From NCBI GenBank assembly GCA_016932615.1, contig JAFGCN010000025.1, positions 1 to 60,056 of the forward strand: DNA of 60,056 bases. The letters run 5' to 3'. Each line of letters starts with the position of its first letter. Position 1 is the stretch's first letter. Source of the stretch: Candidatus Aenigmatarchaeota archaeon. GTDB taxonomy: Archaea; Aenigmatarchaeota; Aenigmatarchaeia; QMZS01. Both the position numbers and the translations under genes were made by a program. The notes beneath the pieces were generated by a model that saw only the letters and a program-made list of their open reading frames with translations, searched no databases and was not told the origin of the DNA. Positions 17,176 to 17,402 of this stretch are shown in pieces.

Positions 17176-17355
17176 TGGACGAGGTGGGATTTGAAGTCGT
17201 GGAAGCCTTTCATCCTAGCCAAAATTCAAAGTAGAATCCTGCGAAGCAGGAAACTGCTTTCTTTTGGTCCTGGAGCTTTTCTTTTGCAAAGAAAAGCTTC
17301 ACCCACGGCCTCCCCCATGCCAAGGGGGTATTCTACCGGGCTGAACTACTCGCCC
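17176..17355 (-). tRNA. tRNA-Ala(GGC) with a 106-nt intron between positions 53 and 54
   Basis: Read on the minus strand, exon 1 (17355-17302, 54 nt) holds acceptor strand GGGCGAG, a D arm (GTTC...GAAT) and the anticodon arm CCCCC-TTGGCAT-GGGGG with anticodon GGC. It ends with AGGCC and the T-stem strand GTGGG. Exon 2 (17195-17176) gives the T loop TTCAAAT, CCCAC, CTCGTCC and discriminator A. The acceptor stem has the G3:U70 pair that marks alanine tRNA. The intron is 17301-17196. CGTG of exon 1 pairs with CACG at the intron end, with 3-nt bulges GG/T and AC/T at the splice sites and an inner GAAGC:GCTTC helix. That is a bulge-helix-bulge in the T arm, not at the usual 37/38 site. CCA is not encoded. 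Mature length is 74 nt. Confidence 0.9.
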
Positions 17356-17402
17356 ATAACATAGATAAAATAAAGCTAATATGTGAGTTATTTTTAGCCC
17401 AA

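Follow-up and report, generated by a model that had tools for sequence, protein, structure and literature searches.

An intron at position 53/54 of an alanine tRNA gene and a dispersed family of similar introns in an Aenigmatarchaeota genome

The alanine tRNA gene and its splice junction

The window, meaning the whole stretch of DNA analysed here, comprises 60,056 nucleotides of one contig of a Candidatus Aenigmatarchaeota genome (denoted G000). As shown in Table 1, a tRNA-Ala(GGC) gene interrupted by an intron was found on the minus strand of the window (17355..17176). When exon 1 (54 nt, GGGCGAG...GTGGG, with GTGGG as its 3′ end) is joined to exon 2 (TTCAAAT...GTCCA), the resulting 74-nt tRNA-Ala(GGC) has a full cloverleaf with G3:U70 and a discriminator A, and it was given a score of 121.5 by ARAGORN. 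Since the two exons are collinear within 180 nt, the gene is neither split nor permuted.

Table 1. Features of the tRNA-Ala(GGC) locus (positions in the window)
Feature	Position	Strand	Description
Promoter-like region	17356..17385	(-)	AT-rich block centred near -24; TTAT abutting the tRNA 5′ end
Exon 1	17302..17355	(-)	Acceptor 5′ strand, D arm, anticodon arm, variable loop, 5′ T-stem strand
Intron of tRNA-Ala(GGC)	17196..17301	(-)	106 nt, site 53/54, TGAAGC...CACGAC
Exon 2	17176..17195	(-)	20 nt: T loop, 3′ T-stem strand, acceptor 3′ strand, discriminator A
BHB central helix, 5′ strand	17304..17307	(-)	CGTG, in exon 1
BHB central helix, 3′ strand	17198..17201	(-)	CACG, in the intron
5′ splice-site bulge	17301..17303	(-)	GGT; predicted cut between GG and T
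3′ splice-site bulge	17195..17197	(-)	ACT; predicted cut between AC and T
Inner helix, 5′ strand	17291..17300	(-)	GAAGCTTTTC; shared with the conserved hairpin (5′ arm)
Inner helix, 3′ strand	17202..17211	(-)	GAAAGGCTTC
Conserved intron 5′ module of Ala	17254..17302	(-)	Hairpin TGAAGCTTTTCTTT/AAAGAAAAGCTCCA and tail GGACCAAAAGAAAGCAG

A preliminary description of the locus had suggested that standard tRNA finders might miss the gene, and ARAGORN and Rfam did. ARAGORN detected no tRNA in the whole window nor in the unspliced precursor, and Rfam RF00005 gave the precursor only 23 bits, below the gathering score of 29, and misplaced its 3′ end. An intron-aware solver was applied to both strands of the window, and its single match was this gene, with a score of 155.5 including the bulge-helix-bulge (BHB) motif. 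On 400 dinucleotide shuffles the solver gave any hit in four, with a top score of 119.9. A BLAST search of the genome, a draft about 97% complete, with the joined exons retrieved both exons and one 19-nt T-arm match elsewhere, and nothing more. Thus, no second tRNA-Ala(GGC) was found in the draft; an uninterrupted copy would have counted against the preliminary description. The locus is the tRNA-Ala(GGC) gene of this genome, and it has a real intron at the non-canonical position 53/54, as had been claimed.

The junction can form the BHB that had been proposed for it, with a 4-bp central helix (CGTG:CACG), two 3-nt bulges, and an inner helix (GAAGC:GCTTC) which is extendable to about 10 bp (GAAGCTTTTC:GAAAGGCTTC). 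No outer helix in register is present at this junction, and thus the motif is of the relaxed HBh′ type and not of the strict hBHBh′ type. By the known rule of BHB processing, the splicing endonuclease EndA would cut the precursor between GG and T and between AC and T, and the ligase RtcB would join the exons. The GAAGCTTTTC strand has two alternative pairing partners, one in the BHB inner helix and the other in the conserved intron hairpin described below. In the unconstrained fold of the precursor (-68.3 kcal/mol), the 5′ arm of the intron is predicted to pair within its own hairpin and not in the BHB, whereas a fold in which the acceptor stem, the anticodon stem, and the BHB were enforced has a predicted energy of -60.4 kcal/mol. 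This predicted preference for the hairpin is a point against the splicing explanation. RNAcofold also chose another register at the junction.

The promoter-like region of the alanine gene resembles a signature seen at 21 solved tRNA genes of the genome. T occurs at -1 and -3 in all 21, A at -2 in 20, and T at -4 in 18, and the genes have in common an AT-rich block centred at -24, where only A or T is found. Since this signature was not used in solving the genes, it independently supports their correct delimitation. It also suggests that transcription of the tRNA genes may start at or near +1, as in Nanoarchaeum equitans.

A repeated module in the introns of tRNA genes

Is such an intron confined to the alanine gene? 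The introns of the interrupted tRNA genes of this genome were found to be alike among themselves, a feature that the preliminary description had overlooked. They share a module occupying about the first 49 nt of the intron and consisting of a covarying hairpin and an A-rich tail. A model of the module (R1) has 51 full-length matches in the genome at E < 0.005, although its E-values are rough because of a short calibration. The alanine copy, which belonged to the training set of R1, tops all 51 matches with 70 bits and an E-value of 1.1e-11. The pattern CTCCAGGACCAAAAGAAAG has 13 matches with up to three mismatches in the genome, while its reversed control has none. Two of the R1 matches (C29:35464 and C18:48940, plus strand) are within introns but in antisense orientation, and thus some introns hold an inverted second copy near the 3′ end.

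The hairpin is supported by an alignment of 23 copies, in which 89.6% of the cells are paired. The number of double-changed cells is 39 versus 12.2 in shuffles, and the covariation score is 0.372 versus 0.180 in shuffles (0/500). All of these pairing and covariation values lie far above those of slid versions. Such a covarying hairpin and conserved A-rich tail, kept in many introns, might mean that the intron is real while its 5′ module has been retained as a functional RNA, such as a protein-binding or guide RNA, without having spread as an element. Other families of the class also have modules of a similar kind, which would fit this idea. However, the module has no known function and no Rfam family matches it, and its copy number differs sharply between relatives. 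A retained functional RNA is therefore a doubtful, though conceivable, account of the module.

The position of the element was compared with splice sites that had been predicted blind to it. When the solver was given only tRNA structure and BHB pairing, it put the 5′ splice site no more than 2 nt from the start of the element in every one of the 24 copies, and the intron start fell at 0 or +1 of the element in 20 of the 24. When it was also supplied with the element positions, it resolved 21 tRNA genes with ARAGORN scores of at least 115 and up to three introns per gene. The element-bearing introns are located in the D-loop and at 37/38, 53/54, and 59/60 across many isoacceptors, and several genes carry two or three copies. 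This inventory was compiled from searches and short stretches and is non-exhaustive. No clean solution was obtained for some genes with multiple introns, among them several Leu, Gly(CCC), and Ile(TAT). A few of the labels assigned by the solver are also questionable: for instance, CAT is a better reading of the "Pyl" gene at C7:133995, and Trp CCA of the "Ser CGA" gene at C29:35520.

How many tRNA genes are left plain? At E ≤ 0.001, RF00005 matches this genome eight times, versus a median of 30 Rfam tRNA matches in class members which lack the element and are at least 85% complete. Among the RF00005 matches examined, none is clearly an intronless tRNA gene. One 28-bit match (L009, G000:C17:42150-42227) is a doubtful tRNA-like sequence whose acceptor stem is unusual and whose variable region is long. 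It is likely that nearly every tRNA gene of this archaeon would need splicing before use. The tRNA counts of standard finders, which often serve as a gauge of completeness, would be badly wrong for this genome.

These observations bear on the possibility that the alanine locus is a pseudogene broken by a dispersed DNA repeat, the working gene being in the missing 3% or so of the assembly. The genome is indeed incomplete, and the element is a dispersed repeat with at least one copy outside tRNA genes. However, since nearly all tRNA genes found carry insertions, most tRNAs would then be missing. Moreover, the exon stems and the promoter signature are intact, and the insertion boundaries are consistently BHB-compatible. 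A broken pseudogene is thus highly improbable.

The copy outside tRNA genes is a good one (G000:C11:42448-42498, L061); it is flanked by two genes that are transcribed divergently, and no tRNA surrounds it. This intergenic copy is a point against the explanation by a family of tRNA introns. Two other arrangements were observed near tRNA genes. At G000:C11:22310-22400 (L135), a 5′ fragment of tRNA-Val (GGGCTCGTAGTCC) is followed by the element, directly upstream of a complete tRNA-Val(CAC) gene. At G000:C17:41692-41744, the element lies on the opposite strand beside tRNA-Gln(TTG) and is flanked by 3′-end fragments of tRNA-Gln(TTG).

The alanine module is identical at 49 of 52 nt to the modules at 37/38 of tRNA-Arg(CCT) and tRNA-Ser(CGA), and at 48 of 52 nt to the module at 53/54 of tRNA-Asp. 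Thus, similar introns occupy different sites of different tRNAs in one genome. Could they have spread solely by duplication of intron-bearing tRNA genes followed by anticodon changes, without any movement of introns? The introns at 59/60 of three Val isoacceptors are nearly identical, as would be expected from gene duplication. However, near-identical modules also occur in unrelated tRNAs at 37/38, 53/54, 59/60, and in the D loop, and two or three copies are present in several genes, so that duplication as the sole route is quite unlikely. The near-identity of the Ala, Arg, Ser, and Asp modules at their different sites argues for the movement of introns between genes rather than the duplication of whole genes.

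It is highly probable that the alanine gene contains a cis-spliced BHB intron which is a recent member of a multiplied, dispersed family, and that nearly every tRNA of this archaeon requires splicing. The family with the conserved 5′ hairpin module has probably multiplied within and between the tRNA genes of this Aenigmatarchaeota lineage, as judged from modules that are nearly the same in unrelated tRNAs although their sites differ. Candidate routes of spread are reverse splicing followed by reverse transcription, and recombination between DNA copies. The mechanism by which archaeal tRNA introns are gained is unsettled. Since this lineage has many nearly identical introns at varied sites, and relatives in which they are absent, intron gain can be followed here site by site.

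Distribution of the element among relatives

In four relatives (G009, G019, G020, and G034), the tRNA-Ala(GGC) gene is uninterrupted across 53/54, which supports the exon join deduced here. In three members of the same family (G003, G006, and G007), tRNA-Ala(GGC) is interrupted in the D loop and at 59/60 instead. Since relatives lack the intron at the same site while same-family introns lie elsewhere, the 53/54 intron is best read, from these sequence comparisons, as a gain within the lineage of this archaeon.

The closest relatives of the EndA protein of this genome come from records named Candidatus Aenigmatarchaeota. Of the 156 genomes of this phylum, 35 have R1 matches at 1e-4, and all ten same-family relatives are among them. 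The matches in other families are weaker, and many of them lie within tRNA genes. Across 40 genomes, the R1 count correlates negatively with the count of plain tRNA genes (Spearman -0.54, p = 0.0003, uncorrected for shared ancestry). In two relatives (G002 and G008; L095 and L096), the element adjoins a tRNA gene at its 3′ end and lies outside the gene.

The splicing endonuclease and comparison with known systems

The genome encodes both a splicing endonuclease and a ligase, each by one gene. The single PF01974 EndA gene (L001) has one N-terminal and one C-terminal domain and one catalytic unit, and there is one RtcB gene. A beta-subunit query from another family of the class retrieved only the same EndA gene in this genome, and the N-terminal domain of EndA has no CSL- or ASL-like insertion. 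Thus, the gene content is that of an alpha4 enzyme, with neither the second subunit of an (alpha-beta)2 enzyme nor the fused units or CSL or ASL loop that mark the (alpha-beta)2 and epsilon2 types. The preliminary description was right about a real non-canonical intron that standard searches miss, but the heterotetrameric or ARMAN-type endonuclease for which it suggested a search is not supported. Judging from gene content, EndA probably acts as a homotetramer of a single alpha-type subunit.

EndA has a GVKLKRGPKSVKEH stretch between the catalytic Tyr and His. The stretch is kept across much of the class, including G017, which has many plain tRNAs, and its presence alone is thus no indicator of intron load. 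An AlphaFold2 model of EndA has a mediocre pLDDT of 69.5, with values below 50 in the Tyr-His loop, so that no argument is made from loop geometry; the best PDB match of the model is the M. jannaschii enzyme. At its N-terminus, EndA is extended by about 100 residues rich in Lys and Glu (L001, 838-1240); this extension is also found, with varying length, in same-family relatives. The architecture of EndA differs within the class: a single alpha, adjacent beta and alpha genes, or two units fused in one frame were observed among the genomes compared (G015, G022, G028; G013, G019, G020, G026, G036, G037).

Alpha-only (alpha4) enzymes have been described as confined to canonical introns (PMC4033280, PMC6379350). 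A relaxed BHB in a genome with an alpha-only EndA conflicts with this described limit and is a further point against the splicing explanation. If such an enzyme does serve introns at varied sites, as its gene content would imply, the view that intron diversity is tied to the architecture of the endonuclease is challenged. A wider interpretation is that structured mobile BHB introns colonise tRNA genes and some other spots in several Aenigmatarchaeota families and are tolerated because an alpha-only EndA with a Lys-rich loop between its catalytic Tyr and His cuts relaxed BHBs at any tRNA site, contrary to the described limit; this is a tentative possibility, which I consider somewhat less than even.

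ARMAN-2 epsilon2 and crenarchaeal (alpha-beta)2 endonucleases are described as broad and loop-dependent (PMC12397907, PMC6379350). Those systems resemble the present one in having relaxed BHB introns at many tRNA sites, but here there is one single-unit EndA whose N-terminal domain has no ASL/CSL-like insertion. The catalytic subunit of the N. equitans EndA (3iey_A) is alike in having a Tyr-His insertion of similar length and Lys content (GVIPKKGKRSEREH, compared with GVKLKRGPKSVKEH in L001). In contrast, N. equitans has a beta subunit (3iey_B, NEQ261), while none was found in this genome.

In the Asgard lineages Atabeyarchaeia and Freyarchaeia, 92-95% of tRNA genes are stated to have introns, often non-canonical and often multiple (PMC11291895). 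They belong to another phylum, and the available portion of that report does not describe a shared repeated intron module. In Thermoproteales, similar intron sequences in diverse tRNAs have been interpreted as large-scale intron transposition (Fujishima et al. 2010, cited in PMC4033280). The two cases are alike in their non-canonical sites, multiple introns per gene, and similar introns in diverse tRNAs, whereas the present case differs in its DPANN host, its single alpha-type EndA, and its covarying 5′ module in the register of the splice site. No paper on Aenigmatarchaeota tRNA introns was found in the open-licence literature. Judged by the literature searched, three features are new: the DPANN setting, a covarying module in splice-site register, and the combination of relaxed, scattered introns with an alpha-only EndA. 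The intron family looks like a DPANN counterpart of the intron transposition in Thermoproteales, with a conserved structured module.
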